DNA of 22,669 bases. Source: a virus. The stretch is from the IMG/VR virus record IMGVR_UViG_3300015374_001367, positions 1 to 22,669 of that record, one strand, 5' to 3'. Made by a program: the position numbers and the translations under genes. Shown here piece by piece: positions 6,501 to 16,391 of the stretch (within the stretch, counting starts at the first letter, position 1; every line of letters starts with the position of its first letter). Below the pieces are notes generated by a model. The model ran no database searches. It worked only from the letters and a program-made list of their open reading frames with translations, and was not told the origin of the DNA.

Positions 6501-7043
6501 ATGCGTGAATTTCCAAAAATGCTGTATGTGGGTTCTACACAATCACATAAGCATCAAGTTGCACAAAATGAAGATCATGAAGCTGAATTGCGTGAATTAG
6601 GCTTTGTTGATTTTGCAGATTTAGAAAGTGAACAAGGGCAAATTTCAGGCGGTGCGGTTGGCAGTGCATCAAGCGAAGATTTTAAAAACGCTTTTGTACC
6701 TATTGAACAATTTGATGCAGTCAGCGAAGAACTTGTTCAAAAAGAATTACAGCTCAATGTTGCACAAACTGAACGTGATGATTTTAAAGCTGAAAATGAT
6801 GATCTTAAAGCTCACTTGAGCAAAGCACTTGAAGAAAATCAACAGCTCAACGAGCAACTAAGCAAAATGCTAGATGCGGAAAAATATCCAAAACAAGGCG
6901 CAGGAATTGATGTTGATCACAACTCAATGACTTCTGAGCAATTGCGAACAATCCTTGATGCTAAGGGTATTAAGTATTTAGCACGTGACAATAAAGATAC
7001 CTTGCTTGCTTTATTGACTCAGCCAGTTAAAACGGAAGAATAA
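6501..7043 (+). CDS. Coiled-coil protein with C-terminal HeH/SAP-like motif
   Basis: 180 residues, function not established. Three parts are visible: a short N-terminal segment (PKMLYVGSTQSHKH) of a type I associate with small phage head proteins; a long acidic coiled coil at about residues 70-125 (VQKELQLNVAQTERDDFKAE and following); and a C-terminal helix-extension-helix-like stretch (MTSEQLRTILDAKGIKY, then NKDTLLALL) at about 142-171, which resembles HeH/LEM/SAP nucleic-acid-binding folds. Position between coat and the gp4-like adaptor suggests a head-associated or DNA-contacting role. The start is taken at 6501 because GGAG at 6489-6492 is well spaced from it; an in-frame ATG at 6459 lies inside the terminator hairpin. 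It ends 2 bases before the next gene. Confidence 0.75.
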   Translation: MREFPKMLYVGSTQSHKHQVAQNEDHEAELRELGFVDFADLESEQGQISGGAVGSASSEDFKNAFVPIEQFDAVSEELVQKELQLNVAQTERDDFKAENDDLKAHLSKALEENQQLNEQLSKMLDAEKYPKQGAGIDVDHNSMTSEQLRTILDAKGIKYLARDNKDTLLALLTQPVKTEE

Positions 7044-7045
7044 CA

Positions 7046-7669
7046 ATGAAAGTTCGTGATTTAGTCCATGCCTCAGCACGTGCTATTGGCATCATTGCGT
7101 CAGGCGAAAATATGACAGATGCCGAGTTGAGCGATGCAGTATCATCATTGAATATGCTTTTAGGGCAATGGTCTACATCACGAGATTATGTGTTTTCGAC
7201 TCAAGATATTGAGATCGATCTTAGCGGCAATTCGTTATATCAAGTCGAAGCAAATTTGATTTCAGATAATGCCAAACTCAATGACGAAGAAATCAAAATC
7301 TATCGTGATATTACTCAAAACAAGCCTAAAAATTGCATTGAGTATACCAAGGTGCTGAATGGCTATGAGTTGCTTGTTCCCCAAAAATTCACAGGCAAAT
7401 TAACGATTCAATCTTTGATTAGCCCTCAATTTCCACTTAAAGCACTTGATGATCTTACTGTACCAGATGAGTATTTCCGCGCAATTAAATACGCTTTAGC
7501 AATTGAGCTTGCACCAGAATATCAATTACCGATTACTCCTGATGTTCAGCAGCAATATCAGCAAGCTATGCGTATTATGCATCGTGCACAGTCTACACCA
7601 ACACCAGTAAAACCTGATCGAGTATTGATGGGAATAAGTCGTGGTAGATATTGGGGGCATTATGATTAA
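7046..7669 (+). CDS. Tail accessory/head completion protein, P22 gp4-like
   Basis: 207 residues (P22 gp4 is 166). In P22 this adaptor binds below the portal and creates the docking site for gp10 and the tailspikes. Features supporting the call are the helical N-terminus (LVHASARAIGIIASGE then LNMLLGQWS), the central beta-rich segment with NGYELLVPQKFTGKLTIQS, the VPDEYFRAIKYALAIELAPEY helix, and the placement directly before a gp10-like gene. P22-type gp4 also has peptidoglycan hydrolase activity reported; I cannot identify the catalytic residue here. The last 8 bases overlap the next gene, so the two are probably translated in a coupled way. Confidence 0.85.
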   Translation: MKVRDLVHASARAIGIIASGENMTDAELSDAVSSLNMLLGQWSTSRDYVFSTQDIEIDLSGNSLYQVEANLISDNAKLNDEEIKIYRDITQNKPKNCIEYTKVLNGYELLVPQKFTGKLTIQSLISPQFPLKALDDLTVPDEYFRAIKYALAIELAPEYQLPITPDVQQQYQQAMRIMHRAQSTPTPVKPDRVLMGISRGRYWGHYD

Positions 7670-10600
7670 ATTGCCTTTGGTTGGTCCAGCCTACAAAATG
7701 CAATCTCAAAGCATTAGTTGCCAAAATTGTATTAACTGGTATCCGCAAACTATTGAGTATCCAAACGGTTCCCGTGTTGCAGCATTGATGCCTACACCAG
7801 GCTTAAAAAAATTATTTAATGGTGAAGTTGCGGCCACTCGTTGCTTATATGTTTTATCCAATGGTGCATTGCTTGTAGTTATTGGGAAAAAGTTATATCA
7901 CAGTAAGTCAACTAAATTAGATTTAAAAGAGATCGGTTTGATTAGTGCTCTTGGCACAGTGAGAATTGCTGATAACGGGCAAGTTGCACTTATTGTGAAT
8001 GGCACATATACATACGCGCTTGATCTCAAGAAACTAACCTTGACTCGCTTATCAGGATCTACAATCCCTCGATCTACACATGTTTTATTCTTAGATGGTC
8101 GTTTTGTGGTGAATAAAGCAAATACAGGTCAATTCTACTGGTCTGATTTGTATAGCACTAAAGTAAATGCATTGTCTTATGCAACCGCAGAATCTACACC
8201 CGACAATATCACCGCAATTGTGACATTTAACCGTGAATTATGGTTGTTTGGTGCGCAAAGTGTAGAGCGATATTATGGTACCGGTTCAAGTAATTCACCT
8301 TTTTCTCGCTTGTCAGGCGGTGCAATGGCCTTTGGTTGTCTTGCTCCCGATAGCATTGTTTCCTTGGCTACAGGTGTGATTTGGCTGGGTGTTAGTGAGT
8401 TTGGCGGCAATCAGATTGTGATGAGCGGTGGCGGTATTCCTGATCGAATCTCGACTCATGCACTTGAAGAAGAAATTTCCTCATTTACCAAAACTTCTGA
8501 CGCTTCGGCTTATGCTTATCAAATCGAGGGGCATGTTTTCTATGTTATTTCATTCCCATCTGCAAATGTGACTTATTGCTTTGATGTTTCAACAGGTCTT
8601 TGGCATCAACGTTCTTTTACAAATGCGCAGGGCTTACATGAGCGTCATCGTTCTCAGCATCATGCTTATTTCAACAATACCCATATTGTCGGGGACTATC
8701 GAAACGGCAAGCTATACCAACTCGATAACAATACATTCACCGATGATGGTGAGTTGATTTTAAGAGAAAGAACAGCTCAAGCGGTAATTACTGATAAAAA
8801 ATTGACTCGTTTTAGTAAATTAGAAATTGTGTGCGAAACTGGGTTTAATTTAGAGAATGTGCAGAGGATTGATTCTGAACCGCCTTTGATTATTATGTGT
8901 AATGATGAAACAAATAGCGTTCGCGTTGCTATGGCAGCTAAGCAATCTGAGGTTCCTTCAATCGCTGCTAGAGCTTTATCAAATACAAATAATCCAATGG
9001 ATTATTTTGAGTTAAGAATTGATAGTGAAGTATATCCGTTTGATCGACCTTTACCAGAGCATATACAGCTAGAGCCTTCATTTTATCCACGCGTATTTTT
9101 ACCAGAAGGGTTTGATTGGCTTAACGCATTTCAATTTATAAATCTTAATAAGGATTCGACTGCTAAAATTGAATTTCTGTCAAAAAATCCAGAATTATTT
9201 ATTTTTGCGTGGGATAACTCAACTATTGTAAATAATTTTTCAGGAACACATTTTGGAGCGTGTTTAGCAACAAACAAAGAAGTGGATCCTGAGCCGGGCT
9301 TTGATGGTCCAGATTGGTTTGTATTAAACAATGTGACAAATCAAGATTTATATATTGATGATGTTCTAGTTGCAACCGCAAAAGATTGGGATACTCAATG
9401 GGATTATTTAACTCGCTTACAAAGAGTATTTTCTAGTAAAAATATTGATTTACTCTTTGTTGGTGAAATTAATAATAATATTCCTGCGATATATTTACGC
9501 AATGAAAAGATTGCATCCACAAAGATTTCATTCAAAAAAAATGGCTATGTTAAAGGCACTATTACATCACCAGATGAAAATGTTAACACTTCATTTGTTG
9601 AAAGTGATGATGGGGTGACTATCCAACTTGGTAAACAATTTACTGAGGATTTAATTTACAAGCCGAGTGAAAGCAATAATTTCTTTGCATATCAGTATTA
9701 TAGTGTGAGTGACTTTAGTAAAGCTCAAGCGATGATGCAGATTTATATCAACGATCAGCTTTTTGTAACTAACGCGAATGATCCTTTTTACTACTCTAAA
9801 GATTTAGAGAGATGGCACGGCATTCGAGCAATGTCTAAAGAATTTTATGAAGATCCAATTCTTGAAAATATCAATACCTATGTATTTGAGAATATGACAG
9901 AAAAAGAGATCAAATTAAGATTTAGATATTTCACCCCACTAGGTTGCCAGAGTACAAAAACAGCTTTAAATGATTCTGCAAATTATTTAGAGCGGAATTT
10001 ATGTATTGTTCTTGCACCTCGAAAACTTGTTGTAGATGTTAAAGACAGGCCATCTTACGCAATTAATTTAAGGTATGAATTTAGTCGTAAATATCCTGTG
10101 TATTTACAAAGCGACCTCGTCGTTGAATACAACATCAAATCAGACTTAAAACCTTATGTAAATATTGAGGATTACTTTACAGAGCAGTATCCAACTAAAA
10201 TGTGTAATGCATTGTGTAATATGGATCCTAATTACAGCCAGTTTGATCATGTTAAAGCTTCAAGTATTTTTGTTGGTGAATTCCCAAGAAAACTCATAAA
10301 AGGCCAAGAGGGATCTGGTTATGAGAATAGATGGGGAGCACCAATAGAAAGCAACAATCAGTGGATTTATGACGTTTGGGGTAGCAATGTTACTGTGAAT
10401 TTAAATATTGAATCTGAGGTTTATGGATTGGGCGGCGCAGGCGGTAATATCGTTGATCGCTTAACAGGCAACTATGACTTGAATGGACAAAATGGTTTTG
10501 CTCCAATTAGTAACTTTGATGAAGATGTAATAGTCAACTTAACAGTGAAATCAACAGGTAGGATTATTGCTGGTGGGGGTGGAGGCGCTTCATTCCCAAC

Positions 10601-11165
10601 TGGTAAATTAAAGGTTGAGTTTAGAGAAAGACATACTTTTGAAAACTCAAATGAATGGACTGAATGGACTGATTGGCAGTTCGATAAAATCACAGGCGAG
10701 TTTTACTTATTTGGTGGTACTGGTGGTTTGCCTAACGGAATAGTGGGTAATTACAATGCGCCTAATGATGATTTCCCTTATGCATTATCAACAATTTCAA
10801 ATGAATATGCGTTTACTGATTTTTTAAAAAGTAAAATGCTAGACCCTAAGTATGCCTTTGATTTTAATAATGAGGAAATGGCAAAGTTCAATTCGGGGTT
10901 ACCCGGAGGCTTTGCTAAACGATCTGTAAAATCTCCACCAGATGATAGTGATGGCCTTCCTTTTGTTATTAACAATGTTATTGAAAATAGCGGACTATAC
11001 CAGAGGGAGTTTAAACGTAAATGGGAGGACTTAAGGAATGATCAAGCTATGGGTGGTTTGGCTGGTAAGCTTTTTCAAGGTGGCAAAGTGGGCAAAATCA
11101 TAGTGCACAATGGCGGCAAAATACTTACAGATGATGCTAATGATCTCGACATAGAATACCTATAG
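7662..11165 (+). CDS. gp10-like tail hub with a large C-terminal insert
   Basis: 1167 residues, far longer than P22 gp10 (472). Residues 1 to about 395 are the family domain: LPLVGPAYKMQSQSISCQNC, INWYPQ, the repeated-strand propeller (FGAQSVERYYGTG, GVSEFGGNQIVMSGGG), and RFSKLEIVCETGF near residue 390. In this family the text then runs straight into a W-S-D-D-G-G-x-T-W-S segment. Here about 770 unrelated residues follow instead, and that segment is found in the next gene. The insert is AT-rich (hand counts: 14 GC of 60 at 9181-9240, 11 of 60 at 9421-9480, against 30 of 60 at 8281-8340). Its last quarter has glycine-rich loops (YGLGGAGGN near 921, IIAGGGGGAS near 967, FGGTGG near 1017) like those of phage adhesins. 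The ATG at 7662 is preferred over the in-frame GTG at 7641 because of GGGGG at 7653-7657. Confidence 0.85.
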   Translation: MIKLPLVGPAYKMQSQSISCQNCINWYPQTIEYPNGSRVAALMPTPGLKKLFNGEVAATRCLYVLSNGALLVVIGKKLYHSKSTKLDLKEIGLISALGTVRIADNGQVALIVNGTYTYALDLKKLTLTRLSGSTIPRSTHVLFLDGRFVVNKANTGQFYWSDLYSTKVNALSYATAESTPDNITAIVTFNRELWLFGAQSVERYYGTGSSNSPFSRLSGGAMAFGCLAPDSIVSLATGVIWLGVSEFGGNQIVMSGGGIPDRISTHALEEEISSFTKTSDASAYAYQIEGHVFYVISFPSANVTYCFDVSTGLWHQRSFTNAQGLHERHRSQHHAYFNNTHIVGDYRNGKLYQLDNNTFTDDGELILRERTAQAVITDKKLTRFSKLEIVCETGFNLENVQRIDSEPPLIIMCNDETNSVRVAMAAKQSEVPSIAARALSNTNNPMDYFELRIDSEVYPFDRPLPEHIQLEPSFYPRVFLPEGFDWLNAFQFINLNKDSTAKIEFLSKNPELFIFAWDNSTIVNNFSGTHFGACLATNKEVDPEPGFDGPDWFVLNNVTNQDLYIDDVLVATAKDWDTQWDYLTRLQRVFSSKNIDLLFVGEINNNIPAIYLRNEKIASTKISFKKNGYVKGTITSPDENVNTSFVESDDGVTIQLGKQFTEDLIYKPSESNNFFAYQYYSVSDFSKAQAMMQIYINDQLFVTNANDPFYYSKDLERWHGIRAMSKEFYEDPILENINTYVFENMTEKEIKLRFRYFTPLGCQSTKTALNDSANYLERNLCIVLAPRKLVVDVKDRPSYAINLRYEFSRKYPVYLQSDLVVEYNIKSDLKPYVNIEDYFTEQYPTKMCNALCNMDPNYSQFDHVKASSIFVGEFPRKLIKGQEGSGYENRWGAPIESNNQWIYDVWGSNVTVNLNIESEVYGLGGAGGNIVDRLTGNYDLNGQNGFAPISNFDEDVIVNLTVKSTGRIIAGGGGGASFPTGKLKVEFRERHTFENSNEWTEWTDWQFDKITGEFYLFGGTGGLPNGIVGNYNAPNDDFPYALSTISNEYAFTDFLKSKMLDPKYAFDFNNEEMAKFNSGLPGGFAKRSVKSPPDDSDGLPFVINNVIENSGLYQREFKRKWEDLRNDQAMGGLAGKLFQGGKVGKIIVHNGGKILTDDANDLDIEYL

Positions 11166-11174
11166 GAGCGTTAC

Positions 11175-11375
11175 ATGGAACCACTTTTACAGCTGAATTG
11201 GTCAGACGATAACGGTCATACTTGGTCTGATACTCGCCTGATCCCATTAGGTAAAAAGGGTGAGTATCGTAAACGTGTGATTGCTCGTCGGCTTGGCTCT
11301 GGTCGAGATCGAGTCTTTCGGCTCAGATGTTCAGAGCCAATCAAGATCGTCATTATTGAGGGGATTTTGGAATGA
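11175..11375 (+). CDS. Detached gp10 C-terminal segment (66 residues)
   Basis: This short gene encodes what I recognise as the conserved C-terminal end of gp10-like hub proteins: LNWSDDNGHTWSDTRLIPLG, KKGEYRKRVIARRLGSGRDR, then VFRLRCSEPIKIVIIEG. In the usual family protein it is fused behind the ETG segment that here ends near residue 393 of the preceding gene. It has its own start and an AGGAG ribosome binding site at 11164-11168, so it is probably translated and may assemble with the hub as a separate chain. The strong conservation of the motif argues that it is still under selection. It ends by ATGA overlap with the next gene. Reading it as a broken remnant is the alternative. Confidence 0.8.
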   Translation: MEPLLQLNWSDDNGHTWSDTRLIPLGKKGEYRKRVIARRLGSGRDRVFRLRCSEPIKIVIIEGILE

Positions 11376-12004
11376 GCCAAGGCATCCCCTCAAGAGATTC
11401 ACTCGTTGATAGAAACGGCCAGATGACTACAATCTGGCTTATTTTTTTTGAGCAATTGTATTCTGTTTATTCTGACTCGAGTCAAAACAATACAGAATCT
11501 ATTGCACAGATTAAAAAAATTGCAGATCAAGCGCTTGGACTTGCTCAACAAGTAGAATCAAGCAATAAAGAGCAACAAAAGCAAATTGAAGAATTGCACA
11601 AATTAATTACTAATTCAGCGGGCGATTTTGCAACTACTCAAGATATTACAGCAGTAAATAAACGAGTAGAACAGACCGAATATGACTTGCAGCAATTACA
11701 ACTCGCTTTAGATAATTTAAAAAAAACATTTGATGATTCTCAAAAGGAATCAAAAGATACAATCAAAAATCTGCAAGATCAAATTAATGAATTAGCACGG
11801 TCTAGTTTTATTGAGGCGCCAGTAGATGGAAAGACCTATGGGCGAAAAGATTTAGAGTGGTCTGAAATTGTGGCAGTGAAATTATCATTGCCATTTTTTT
11901 TGAGTGATGGAACAAGACAGAGCATTCCACTAACAAGTGATTTTCAACTTCCATTTTTCTTATCAGATGGCTCTCAGCAAAATATTCAAACGGTGACAGT
12001 ATGA
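11372..12004 (+). CDS. Coiled-coil tail protein, candidate tail needle/plug (gp26 position)
   Basis: 210 residues. The N-terminus (IPSRDSLVDRNGQMTTIWL then FFEQLYSVY) is of a type found at the start of small tail proteins following gp10 in podophages. Residues about 35-150 are a long heptad-rich coiled coil (QIKKIADQALGLAQQVESS and onward). The C-terminus carries two copies of LPFFLSDGxxQxI spaced by exactly 20 residues, suggesting a trimeric beta tip. A long coiled coil with a small tip in the gp4-gp10-gp26 position fits the P22 needle (233 residues), which plugs the portal channel and penetrates the outer membrane. Sequence similarity to gp26 itself is not evident, so the name rests on architecture and gene order. 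ATGA overlaps occur at both ends. Confidence 0.6.
   Translation: MSQGIPSRDSLVDRNGQMTTIWLIFFEQLYSVYSDSSQNNTESIAQIKKIADQALGLAQQVESSNKEQQKQIEELHKLITNSAGDFATTQDITAVNKRVEQTEYDLQQLQLALDNLKKTFDDSQKESKDTIKNLQDQINELARSSFIEAPVDGKTYGRKDLEWSEIVAVKLSLPFFLSDGTRQSIPLTSDFQLPFFLSDGSQQNIQTVTV
11879..11998 (+). repeat. Two tandem 60-bp units encoding LPFFLSDGxxQxI
   Basis: The first LPFFLSDG starts at 11888 and the second at 11948, exactly 60 bases apart. The amino acids are conserved while the bases differ at many third positions, so the duplication is old and retained for protein structure. It forms the C-terminus of the candidate needle protein. Confidence 0.7.
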
Positions 12005-12894
12005 CAATTCCCTTAAAACACAGACCAGATGGTTTGGGTGAATTCGAGCCTAATGATGTTGTACCTGTTGAGCATGGAGGTACTGGGGTTTCAACTATCT
12101 TAGATGCTCAAAATGTCTTGGGAATTTCGGATAAGTTAGATCGTTCTGAGTACATCCAACACTTTAAAGGTATATTTAATAGTTATGCAGCTTTGACTGC
12201 GGTTTTACCAACTGCCAACGATGGGGATTATGCTCATATTGACTCAGGTACAGGTTTCGATCGAATGGTCGCTATTTGGGATAGTTCAGACAATAAGTGG
12301 GTAATTAGTCAGGCGAATGCAGGAGCCAATACAGATGAAGTACCAGAGGGTAGTCAAAATCTATATTTTAAAAACCAACGAGTTTTAGCAACAATTCTTG
12401 AAGGTTTGGTTGCTGGTACAAATGCAGAGATATTACCAGCTGATAATGTGATTACTGCATTTCAAAAGTTACAAGCGCAGATTAAGGCTTTAAATACTGT
12501 TTGGGTTAGGGCTGATACTATTGGCACTTTCAACACATCAACAGGTTACGGTAATGGGCAAATTAATGGAGCACCAGCATATTTAGAGTTTGCAAAAATC
12601 AACGGTAATTTATGGGTACGCGGTTTTATAAAAATACCGTACGGCAATGGTCTGGCATATACACTTACTGATAAAACTTATAATGTTTTAACTCAAAACG
12701 ATTCAACGTCAGTAATTTTGAGTTTTTTTATGTATCTCTCTCCATCTCCTACGCGAATTTGGCTCAGATCAAACACGAAAGTAAGTGATCAACAGACTGC
12801 TTCAAATGCAGCACAAACTTTTGTTATACCTGATAACTCTACTGAAGGTGTCTATCACATCACAGCTCAATGCTTAGGTAAATTGGCAATATAA
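12001..12894 (+). CDS. Tail fibre-like protein
   Basis: 297 residues. Two motifs common in phage fibres are visible: VVPVEHGGTGVSTILDAQNV then LGI near residues 20-43, and a DEVPEGSQNLYFKNQRVLAT segment near 113-132 (the form T-D-x-x-E-G-x-x-N-L-Y-F). The region after about residue 165 (LNTVWVRADTIGTFN and onward to the end) is beta-rich and has the look of a C-terminal knob. The gene is coupled to the preceding coiled-coil protein by an ATGA overlap, so the two may act as shaft and knob of one appendage, or this may be an accessory fibre. The order of operon genes and fibre motifs are seen; the precise role is inferred. Confidence 0.65.
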   Translation: MTIPLKHRPDGLGEFEPNDVVPVEHGGTGVSTILDAQNVLGISDKLDRSEYIQHFKGIFNSYAALTAVLPTANDGDYAHIDSGTGFDRMVAIWDSSDNKWVISQANAGANTDEVPEGSQNLYFKNQRVLATILEGLVAGTNAEILPADNVITAFQKLQAQIKALNTVWVRADTIGTFNTSTGYGNGQINGAPAYLEFAKINGNLWVRGFIKIPYGNGLAYTLTDKTYNVLTQNDSTSVILSFFMYLSPSPTRIWLRSNTKVSDQQTASNAAQTFVIPDNSTEGVYHITAQCLGKLAI

Positions 12895-12908
12895 AGAAGG
12901 AGTCAATC

Positions 12909-13394
12909 ATGGATCTACTCAATGCTTTAATTCATCAAAATGAAGTGAACTCAAAAGAAAATGAACCACTCGATTATTATAAGAAAGCGTTTGATTTACA
13001 AAAAAGTTTGTTTGAACTTGAGCAATTAGACATACCTGTTGAACACCATTTTGCACCTGGTAATTATGCGCGTGAATGTTTTTTACCAGCAGGCTCAGTA
13101 GTGATTGGAAAAGTACACCGTCATGCTCATGTGAACATTATCTCAAAGGGCAAAGTAACAGTTGCAACTTCTGAAGGGCTTCATGAATACGAAGCACCAT
13201 TAACCTTTATCAGTGAACCCGGAGCGAAACGAGCTTTGATTGTTCATGAGGATACGGTATGGACCACTGTGCATCCAAACCCATCAGATACGCAGGATCT
13301 TGCATTGATTGAATCCGATGTGATTGTTCCTGAGAGTGAAGTTGAAGCATTTATTCTAAGTTTAAATCAGGAGAAAATCACATGTCATGGGTAG
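12909..13394 (+). CDS. Cupin-fold phage protein
   Basis: 161 residues. A single cupin-like beta barrel is suggested by EHHFAPGNYARECFLPAGS (45-63), the histidine cluster GKVHRHAHVN (H70, H72, H74), the glycine turn SKGKVTV, the PGAKRALIVHEDTVWTTVH segment and H122 in the last of these. These residues could form a metal site of the cupin type. I recall proteins with this layout in late operons of podophages, but no experimentally settled function is known to me. A strong GAAGGAG ribosome binding site sits 6 bases before the ATG. Its stop overlaps the next gene by 13 bases, and it lies where P22 carries gene 14. A structural or assembly role is only inferred from that position. Confidence 0.7.
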   Translation: MDLLNALIHQNEVNSKENEPLDYYKKAFDLQKSLFELEQLDIPVEHHFAPGNYARECFLPAGSVVIGKVHRHAHVNIISKGKVTVATSEGLHEYEAPLTFISEPGAKRALIVHEDTVWTTVHPNPSDTQDLALIESDVIVPESEVEAFILSLNQEKITCHG

Positions 13395-14347: not shown

Positions 14348-15763
14348 ATGGCGACTCAAAATCCAATCCCTGTTTATTTCAATCCTGAAATTGGCCCAAA
14401 CTATCAAGGCCTTTCATTTGAAGACATAGCAAACTCTTTTAACAATGGCCAACAGTTCAGTAATCAGATTCAACAACAGCAGCAAAAGGGCATTTTAGCT
14501 CGATTGATCGCTCAAAATACTGGTGCAGACGGTCAAGTTGATTTAAATAAGTCTTTACAGTCAGTACAAACAAATCCCAATCACAGATACCAACCTGAAA
14601 TTGTTAATACATTGTCAGGGATGATTCAGCAACAAAATGCAGCTAAATTGAAATCTCAGAATGATGCTTTAACACTTGATGCAGATTTAAATAAAAAATA
14701 TGCTGAAACTGGAAAACTGAAACAAGAGGGATTGGGTAAAGGCCTTGAAAATAGCGAAAAAAAATTAGGAGCTATAAATCAGATCTTTCAAGCTGCTGCT
14801 TTAACTGGGAGCAAAAACAATGTTTTATTGGGTTTGAATGGTGCGCTTAAAAGTGGTGTTATTGATCCTGATACCTTTAATCAGCAAAAGCAAATCGTTG
14901 ATTTAATGTCTCCTGAAGATATTAAATCTTATGCTTCAGGGATTAGCTTTGGAAATGCCAAGGATCCAGCAAGTATATTGTATCAAACAGCAAATAATGC
15001 CGCTGATAATGCTACAAGTTCTGCTAATAATATGCGTACCACCAATGCTTCAATCTATTCTACGGATATTGGCGCTCAAACTGCTGATAAAAACCGTGTT
15101 CAACAAGATTCGCAATTCCAGCAGAATTATACACTTAATCAGCAAAAAGCCTTTTTTGAGCAAAACAAACCAACATCGTATGGCTATGATACTCAAGGTC
15201 GTCAGTATGCAGTTCTTCCAAATGGGAAAGCTGTATATGTGAAAGATGAACAAGGTCAGTATGTTGTTGGGCAACAGAAAGGCGGTAAAGGTCTGAGTGA
15301 GCAGCAAAGTAAGGATGCTTTGTTTGGTGCAAGGATGCAAGAATCAAACGCCATTTTAAACGAATTAGAGAGCAAAGGAATCTCCCAAACAGTTATGAGT
15401 CGTTTACCTTGGTTAGGAGATTCCTTGTCTACTTCGCTTCCATCTGTTTTAGGTGGGGCAAATGAATCTCAAGGAAAATACATGCAAGCTCGCAGAGACT
15501 TCATTAATGCGGTACTGCGTAAAGAATCAGGTGCAGTAATTGCCGATAGTGAGTTTAGCAATGCTGAAAAACAATATTTCCCACAAGTAGGCGACTCAAA
15601 GGAGATTATTGCTCAAAAAGCAAGAAACAGAGACTTAGCAACAAAAATGATCTTGGGGAGTGCGGGGCCTGTAGGACAGCAATTGGTTAATCAAGTCAGA
15701 GGGAAAGAAGGTGCAAGTACCACTCAACCACCTTTGATCAATTCTTCTTCGTTTATGCCATAG
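14348..15763 (+). CDS. DNA ejection protein, gp20-like
   Basis: 471 residues, the same length I recall for P22 gp20. The N-terminal half is Gln/Asn-rich and helical (QIQQQQQKGILARLI near 42-56). The C-terminal domain carries the conserved ejection-protein pattern: RRDFINAVLRKESGAVIADS then EFSNAEKQYFPQVGD, followed by a basic helix (QKARNRDLATKMILG). Such proteins enter the periplasm with the DNA and build a temporary channel. The gene starts 12 bases after the gp7-like gene. It is separated from the next ejection genes by an inserted small transcription unit, which is not expected in this block. Confidence 0.82.
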   Translation: MATQNPIPVYFNPEIGPNYQGLSFEDIANSFNNGQQFSNQIQQQQQKGILARLIAQNTGADGQVDLNKSLQSVQTNPNHRYQPEIVNTLSGMIQQQNAAKLKSQNDALTLDADLNKKYAETGKLKQEGLGKGLENSEKKLGAINQIFQAAALTGSKNNVLLGLNGALKSGVIDPDTFNQQKQIVDLMSPEDIKSYASGISFGNAKDPASILYQTANNAADNATSSANNMRTTNASIYSTDIGAQTADKNRVQQDSQFQQNYTLNQQKAFFEQNKPTSYGYDTQGRQYAVLPNGKAVYVKDEQGQYVVGQQKGGKGLSEQQSKDALFGARMQESNAILNELESKGISQTVMSRLPWLGDSLSTSLPSVLGGANESQGKYMQARRDFINAVLRKESGAVIADSEFSNAEKQYFPQVGDSKEIIAQKARNRDLATKMILGSAGPVGQQLVNQVRGKEGASTTQPPLINSSSFMP

Positions 15764-15767
15764 GATA

Positions 15768-15776
15768 TGCTATAAA
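15768..15776 (+). promoter_or_regulatory. Candidate extended -10 promoter for the secreted-protein gene
   Basis: TGCTATAAA is a TGn extended -10 element lying just behind the gp20-like stop codon. Only a weak -35 (TTCGTT at 15748-15753) is seen, which an extended -10 can tolerate. Transcription would begin near 15783, inside the loop of the adjacent inverted repeat. Confidence 0.4.
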
Positions 15777-15802
15777 TCCCTCATAACTATGGGGGATTTA
15801 TA
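15771..15802 (+). promoter_or_regulatory. Perfect 10-bp inverted repeat covering the ribosome binding site
   Basis: TATAAATCCC (15771-15780) and GGGATTTATA (15793-15802) are perfectly complementary, with a 12-base loop, and end one base before the ATG at 15803. The GGGGGA ribosome binding site at 15791-15796 overlaps the 3' arm. There is no T run, so it is not a terminator. In read-through mRNA the site would be sequestered; a transcript starting in the loop would lack the 5' arm. Confidence 0.6.
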
Positions 15803-16309
15803 ATGAAAATATGGGTTTTAATTTGTGGCTTGCTTGCTTCAAGTTTAAGTTTTGGGGCTGATTGGGTATATGTTAATTCCAGTAATTCTGAAAGTTTTTG
15901 GGTTGATAAGGGTTTTTACAAATACAATGTTAAAAACAACACAGTAGATGTATGGAATAAAGCAATAAAAAAGAAGTCAAATAGTAATGATTTCTATACA
16001 AGTTCGAAGTCTCTAGAAAGATACTCTTGTATGGATAAGTCTTCAAAAAATCTTGCTTATGTTGAATATAAGGAATCTGGAGAGGTATCCAAGTCATACA
16101 CCACCCCCTCTAAAAGTTTCTCAGTAATTTTTCCAGACTCAATTGCTGAAGGGATTTGGGAGGTTGCTTGTAGCTCAAAAGGCAGGGGTTTTAGATTTTC
16201 AAAAAAGCAATTAGAAACTCTCTCAGTTTTTGAAATGCAGGAAAAATATGCCAAAAATGCACCTTATGAGCCCGAATATGTTCCAGAAAGCTTGATATCT
16301 GATAAATAA
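15803..16309 (+). CDS. Secreted small protein (moron), Adhesin_E-like with EYVP tail
   Basis: 168 residues with a clear signal peptide: basic start, hydrophobic core (IWVLICGLLASSL), and a likely cleavage after G18 (SFG|ADW). The mature part has two cysteines (C76, C123) that could form a disulfide, and a pattern recalling the surface-adhesin E-type family (ADWVYV at the start, YSCMDK, then PDSIAEGIWEVAC). I am moderately sure of that family only. The last 14 residues contain YEPEYVPESLI (155-165), the motif repeated in the next gene. The gene sits alone between two ejection genes with its own candidate promoter, an inverted-repeat leader and a terminator at 16392, and is not needed for any known P22 step. 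A lysogenic conversion or superinfection-exclusion role is inferred. Confidence 0.75.
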   Translation: MKIWVLICGLLASSLSFGADWVYVNSSNSESFWVDKGFYKYNVKNNTVDVWNKAIKKKSNSNDFYTSSKSLERYSCMDKSSKNLAYVEYKESGEVSKSYTTPSKSFSVIFPDSIAEGIWEVACSSKGRGFRFSKKQLETLSVFEMQEKYAKNAPYEPEYVPESLISDK

Positions 16310-16391
16310 AGCATCCTAGGGAGTTATTTGTGTAGCTTTCTGTTTTACAAAATCATCCATTGTATCAATCTAATTTAGAAAATAAATCAAG

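Follow-up and report, generated by a model that had tools for sequence, protein, structure and literature searches.

A P22 gp10-type tail hub gene split in two around an exchangeable domain array in a lineage of Acinetobacter podoviruses

In short-tailed phages the diversity of host recognition is usually assigned to fibres and spikes, and the tail hub is viewed as a conserved conduit. Hubs of the P22 type, such as P22 gp10 (PF11134, phrog_578; structures 8eap, 8u10 and 9jg6), Sf6 gp8 (7sg7) and the hubs of Pan3 (9vyg) and Pam1 (7eeq), are single chains of 440–475 residues encoded directly after the adaptor gene. SU10 gp17 and T7 gp12 likewise combine, in one chain, a hub-type platform and a propeller with added domains; their N- and C-terminal parts together make the adaptor-binding platform, and the T7 fibres dock on the outer surface between the propeller and the platform (PMC6702177, PMC9509320). 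Here, a tail hub that departs from this arrangement is described in a window of 22,669 nucleotides (nt) of viral DNA (positions 1 to 22,669 of the IMG/VR record IMGVR_UViG_3300015374_001367), which comes from an Acinetobacter podovirus whose head and tail genes are of the P22 type (terminase, portal, scaffold, coat and adaptor). The portal, scaffold, coat, adaptor and hub genes follow one another in the P22-type order, and the hub occupies the expected position after the adaptor, but it is encoded by two genes, the first of which carries a large domain array at its end. A P22 gp10-type hub built from two polypeptides and bearing an exchangeable array, in one Acinetobacter podovirus lineage, is regarded as the probable explanation of the locus as a whole.

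The hub, its parts and the genes on either side of it lie on the plus strand. Chain 1 (7662–11165, 1167 residues) is counted from an ATG at 7662, the equivalent of the ATG of MIKLPLVG that is the start in the relatives; the open reading frame (ORF) as listed begins at a GTG at 7641 and has 1174 residues. Residues 8–419 of this listed ORF correspond to columns 3–410 of the 486 columns of phrog_578 (head closure Hc3, P22 gp10 type; E-value 8.6e-95), while PF11134 (Phage_stabilise) scores the hub core at 24 bits, just below its cut-off of 25. Columns 406–463 of the same phrog_578 profile are matched by a separate ORF of 66 residues at 11175–11375 (E-value 2.1e-12), hereafter chain 2, in which the C-terminal segment of the family, WSDD..HTWS..GEY..R..RLG..RDR, is present. 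The profile coordinates thus confirm the proposal of the first-pass annotation that a gp10-like hub is split and that its C-terminal end persists as a gene of its own, and the alignments and the profile agree that the segment is the gp10 C-terminus. In the family alignment, the conserved core (7662–8846) ends in ...EIVCETGF and is followed by a variable domain array of about 772 residues (8847–11162), which forms the C-terminus of chain 1; the insert, previously put at about 770 codons, measures 776 codons from the ETGF motif. The TAG stop of chain 1 (11163–11165) is overlapped by an AGGAG ribosome-binding site (11164–11168) located 6 nt ahead of the ATG of chain 2, whose own stop overlaps the start of the next gene in an ATGA (11372–11375).

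The split is common to seven Acinetobacter phages and prophages, namely the window and six loci from IMG/VR and bacterial genomes: L002, L003, L004, L032 (A. silvestris), L034 (A. halotolerans) and an A. haemolyticus locus (L033, continued on another contig as L072). The search of the genus sampled one genome per species, and L008, a further record of IMG/VR, appears to be the same prophage as L034. All the split relatives show chain 1 (95% identical to that of the window in L002), a stop, and then a 66-residue gene 79–100% identical to that of the window. The stops are TAG or TAA, the spacing to the 66-residue gene varies from 3 to 37 nt, and in each of the seven loci this gene has a Shine–Dalgarno-like sequence ahead of its ATG and overlaps the next gene at its end. 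In Rhodoferax phage P26218 the unsplit gp10 ends in a similar 4-nt overlap, so the 66-residue gene ends where an ordinary gp10 does. Pairwise comparisons of the gene give nonsynonymous divergence (dN) of 0.007–0.19 against synonymous divergence (dS) from 0.4 to saturation, with dN/dS of about 0.02–0.1, values that indicate strong purifying selection.

In about 30 other relatives, which comprise phages of Vibrio, Rhodoferax, Pseudomonas and Thalassomonas as well as Acinetobacter prophages about 40% identical, both hub parts lie in a single ORF, mostly 6–27 nt apart (the flag for different ORFs on L021 and L054 is due solely to an N-terminal match that starts just ahead of the start codon). A few unsplit relatives carry small in-frame additions at the short loop where the split lies; the gp10 proteins of MW202520.1 (L051) and MW202483.1 (L052), for instance, have about 50 extra residues there, but remain one ORF, unlike the two of the window. 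In the tree, the seven split hubs are grouped with support of 100/100, their neighbours are unsplit Acinetobacter hubs (88/84), and one change is needed. The split is derived and of single origin in the sampled relatives: in the ancestor, the break in gp10 fell in the short loop ahead of its last ~60 residues. A relative in which the 66-residue protein stands beside a complete gp10, a test set beforehand, was looked for and none was found among these loci. A literature search for split tail hubs likewise returned none, by which their absence is not proved. With two ORFs in seven loci, and in three of these in unequal frames, the hub is not the single polypeptide that is typical of the gp10 type; what departs is the gene structure, and the locus is accordingly filed as a variant of the P22 gp10-type family. 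As a variant of a known structural protein it is real and well supported.

Comparison of the DNA shows that what lies between the two hub parts has a history of its own. By blastn, the window and L032 are 81% identical up to position 8846. The insert gives no match, and homology resumes at 11175, where the ATG of chain 2 begins; the same pattern of break and resumption is seen between L003 and L032. The hubs of the window and L032 are 94% identical, with inserts that show no significant similarity. Five different insert arrangements occur among the seven split loci, with lengths of 141–776 residues and, in two relatives, an additional gene, and their relationships do not track the hub tree: the first insert module is common to L003 and L032 (46% identity), and the extra ORF of the A. 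haemolyticus locus and L004 is 95.5% identical at 79% identity of their gp4–gp10 DNA. A search of PDB sequences, phage records and IMG/VR with the array of the window returned no relative except L002, and the inserts found elsewhere at the site differ from it. The domain array has thus been exchanged independently of the hub, and the data support a split that occurred once, in the ancestor of the seven known viruses, with replacement of the insert since. Because the split is older than the insert, the present insert did not cause it. The earlier proposal of a foreign module that entered the gene, leaving the displaced end to gain a ribosome-binding site and start, therefore stands with respect to the separate gene and its signals and falls with respect to the cause.

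Two marks of such an entry that the first-pass annotation had put forward were also considered. AT-rich blocks do exist (minimum 11 GC per 60 nt), but blocks with at most 14 GC per 60 are equally frequent in the insert (3.4%) and in the sequence outside it (3.1%), overall GC being 35.2% in the insert, against 40.1% for the core of the hub and 38.5% for the window; with local extremes at chance level, AT-richness was rejected as a sign of foreign origin. The 11-base match flanking the insert (8877 and 11178) is real but weak: GAACCRCYTTT has two exact matches and four with one mismatch in the window, longer imperfect repeats occur within the region, and a target-site duplication was rejected, the match being indistinguishable from chance.

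The relationship of the two chains to the known hub fold was addressed by predicting the hub of L003 as one chain, with the stop read through, using the aligned family. The predicted local distance difference test score (pLDDT) is mostly 75–95 by block in the hub part, about 62–86 in the C-terminal part and below 50 in the insert. Residues 1–601 of this model superimpose on residues 3–470 of P22 gp10 (8eap_D) with a Z score of 37.9 and a deviation of 2.4 Å over 435 residues, the fold being that of the model of the relative L003, not of the window protein. Of the 435 aligned residues, no more than 396 can belong to the core of chain 1, which leaves at least 39 for the 66-residue part. The P22-type hubs named above have the same full-length fold as both chains together (Z 33–38), and the SU10 chains align with a Z of 24. 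Since the two parts of L003, read as one chain, fold onto P22 gp10, it is most likely that the 66-residue chain completes the hub in trans. The unrelated propellers among the structure matches cover mostly residues ~44–358, which places the 66-residue part mainly outside the propeller. By analogy with T7 gp12 and SU10 gp17, the break may lie near the adaptor end of the hub and face outward, and the 66-residue piece would most likely complete a platform-type domain that docks on the adaptor, rather than form a separate hub subunit. The adaptor encoded just upstream (7046–7669; P22 gp4 type, P22_Tail-4 PF11650 E-value 5.8e-5, phrog_637) is the expected partner of the platform side. The position of the added domains differs as well: the immunoglobulin-like (Ig-like) domains of SU10 lie between propeller blades 2 and 3, whereas the array of the window is inserted just ahead of the last ~60 residues and has a free C-terminus.

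As to the function of the array, a glycine-rich, adhesin-like segment (10386–10757; residues 916–1039 of the 1174-residue ORF) matches, weakly to moderately, both the T-even gp38 adhesin and the fibre proteins of phrog_2056 ("tail fiber protein; host specificity"; E-value 3.1e-7 over part of the profile), with the gp38-type match located here in a hub-borne array and not at a fibre tip. The inserts of the window and L002 are mostly 94–98% identical except in a block at 10341–10640 (81.7%), and this mosaic block overlaps the sole segment of the array with an adhesin-type match. Chain 1 of the A. haemolyticus locus carries BspA-type leucine-rich repeats (LRR_5, E-value 2.3e-14). The assembly of this locus breaks within near-identical repeats of the hub insert (L033:8019–9731 and L072), and such repeats could expand and contract. 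These features make the insert a candidate for host recognition and suggest that the gap between the hub genes is a plug-in site for host-recognition modules.

The inserts of L003, L032, L004 and the A. haemolyticus locus contain in addition a module of ~130 residues, running from a C-x-G-A/S start to a C-L-A/S-P end. It also occurs in a tail-region protein of the unrelated Acinetobacter phages EAb13, TCUP2199, fJoAci04 and Mystique (E-values of 5e-20 in TCUP2199 and 3e-20 in fJoAci04 with a hidden Markov model of the module), where another, unrelated sequence forms the N-terminal part ahead of it and the whole protein has about 300–366 residues. A broad host range has been reported for the EAb13 group, which is thought to attach to surface polysaccharide (PMC12507263). 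A scan of viral sequences with one copy of the module confirmed no relative. Two Mu-like prophages in a single Acinetobacter genome (G136; L077:4964–5380, minus strand, and L078:4891–5310, plus strand) each carry a lone module gene of 138–139 residues next to a predicted tail sheath gene, and these lone genes likely represent an undescribed family of small virion-associated proteins.

Among the alternatives, the one that retains most weight accepts the two-chain hub but takes the array to be structural or decorative, as an Ig-like decoration, a nozzle extension or a stabilizer of the tail. SU10 gp17, a hub of this fold, has four Ig-like nozzle domains with a mechanical role (PMC9509320), and the lone module genes beside the tail sheath would suit decoration; the rapid swapping of unrelated inserts, the match to a host-specificity profile and the BspA repeats are better suited to contact with the host, and a purely structural array is considered rather unlikely. 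Much less probable is that the 66-residue protein is free and has another role outside the hub, with chain 1 alone being a shortened hub. Assembly in trans is indeed deduced rather than directly seen, but the conserved motifs of the protein are those of the gp10 C-terminus, and chain 1, which holds the rest of the fold, would on the predicted model miss the last strands of a domain.

A further alternative is suppression of the stop, by which chain 1 and the 66-residue part would be made as a single read-through protein. The TAG and the ATG at 11175 share a frame in the window, a circumstance absent from the first-pass annotation, so that read-through needed testing. The frame is also shared in L002, L003 and L034, but it differs in L032, L004 and the A. 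haemolyticus locus, and every locus retains the Shine–Dalgarno-like sequence and the ATG exactly where homology starts. Moreover, a complete extra ORF of 315 residues in L004 and of 440 residues in the A. haemolyticus locus intervenes between chain 1 and the 66-residue gene, for which reason read-through is not a general solution, and it is held to be very improbable. These ORFs (L004:8135–9079 and L072:1287–2609, minus strand) start with MP(R/K)ITIRNLDTEINRR and bear a weak likeness to FitA-type ribbon-helix-helix proteins (E-value about 0.1), which is unusual at the beginning of a virion protein. A nonsense mutation, an assembly error or a decaying remnant, as a lone in-frame TAG between two ORFs of the window might suggest, is practically refuted by the seven independent loci with their differing stops and spacings, the selection on the gene and the conserved ATGA overlap. 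Scarcely more credible is removal of the insert as an intron, intein or homing element, of which a foreign-looking stretch in a conserved gene is the classic sign, as Rfam gives no intron match, also when the threshold is relaxed, and Pfam no Hint, LAGLIDADG, HNH or GIY-YIG match, the insert is open in the hub frame over its 776 codons, and it is wholly different among several relatives.

In the model favoured here, of a two-chain hub with an exchangeable array, coupled translation of one message would yield both chains, and the 66-residue chain would fold onto chain 1 without a covalent link, completing the hub where it contacts the adaptor. The array would hang from the C-terminus of chain 1 outside the tail, in six copies per hexamer, where it may contact the host surface. 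With the end of the hub no longer in the same frame, arrays of any length, frame or number of genes can be exchanged with the hub left intact, and this freedom agrees with the presence of entire additional genes in two relatives. The fuller version of the model, in which an internal loop became, through the break, an open port where modules and whole genes swap freely, so that the DNA-conducting hub bears evolvable host-recognition arms, is put at about even chances.

Several observations weigh against this model. Physical assembly of the two-chain hub named by the first-pass annotation is inferred from sequence, selection and the predicted structure; prediction as a read-through chain, furthermore, favours packing of the C-terminal part. 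An AlphaFold2 prediction of the window array from two near-identical sequences reached a pLDDT of 29.5, which makes the array not modellable, and given this and the values below 50 in L003 no claim is made on its fold. The match of the array to GP38 (PF05268; E-value 4.8e-4, 20.5 bits) is below the curated cut-off of 25. The ~130-residue module is a candidate binder, not a proven one, and the window insert resembles it with E-values of only 0.006–0.1, a relationship that is only suggestive and is not claimed. Finally, a fibre-like gene distinct from the hub genes (12001–12894) is variable at its end in the same phage, and host range may lie in that gene.

Around the hub, the gene that follows it (11372–12004) encodes 210 residues predicted to form a coiled coil, with weak matches of coiled-coil type only, and a terminator-like hairpin with a T run lies inside its first codons (11417–11439). 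At 12441–13040, where the end of the fibre-like gene is likewise swapped, identity to L002 falls to 57–66%, against 94–97% on either side, marking a second variable locus, and the stretch at 14541–16340 (most of gene 14348–15763 and gene 15803–16309) is largely unalignable to L002 (50–62%, with flanks above 90%). Upstream of the hub, L002 has an additional ORF of 127 residues (L002:4957–5340) that separates the coat-side gene from the adaptor gene and that the window lacks (about 6741–7041). In L004 the adaptor gene is divided into two overlapping ORFs of 109 and 102 residues in different frames (L004:5395–6011), perhaps through a frameshift or a sequencing error.

For the biology of these phages, the finding places the swappable part in the hub gene itself, where a natural gene fission seems to have freed swapping from limits of frame and length. 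It predicts that a P22-type hub can receive its last ~60 residues in trans. In Acinetobacter phages the hub would join the fibre gene as a second candidate locus of host range, one that routine annotation likely misses, since the 66-residue piece is so small and few database entries match the array.

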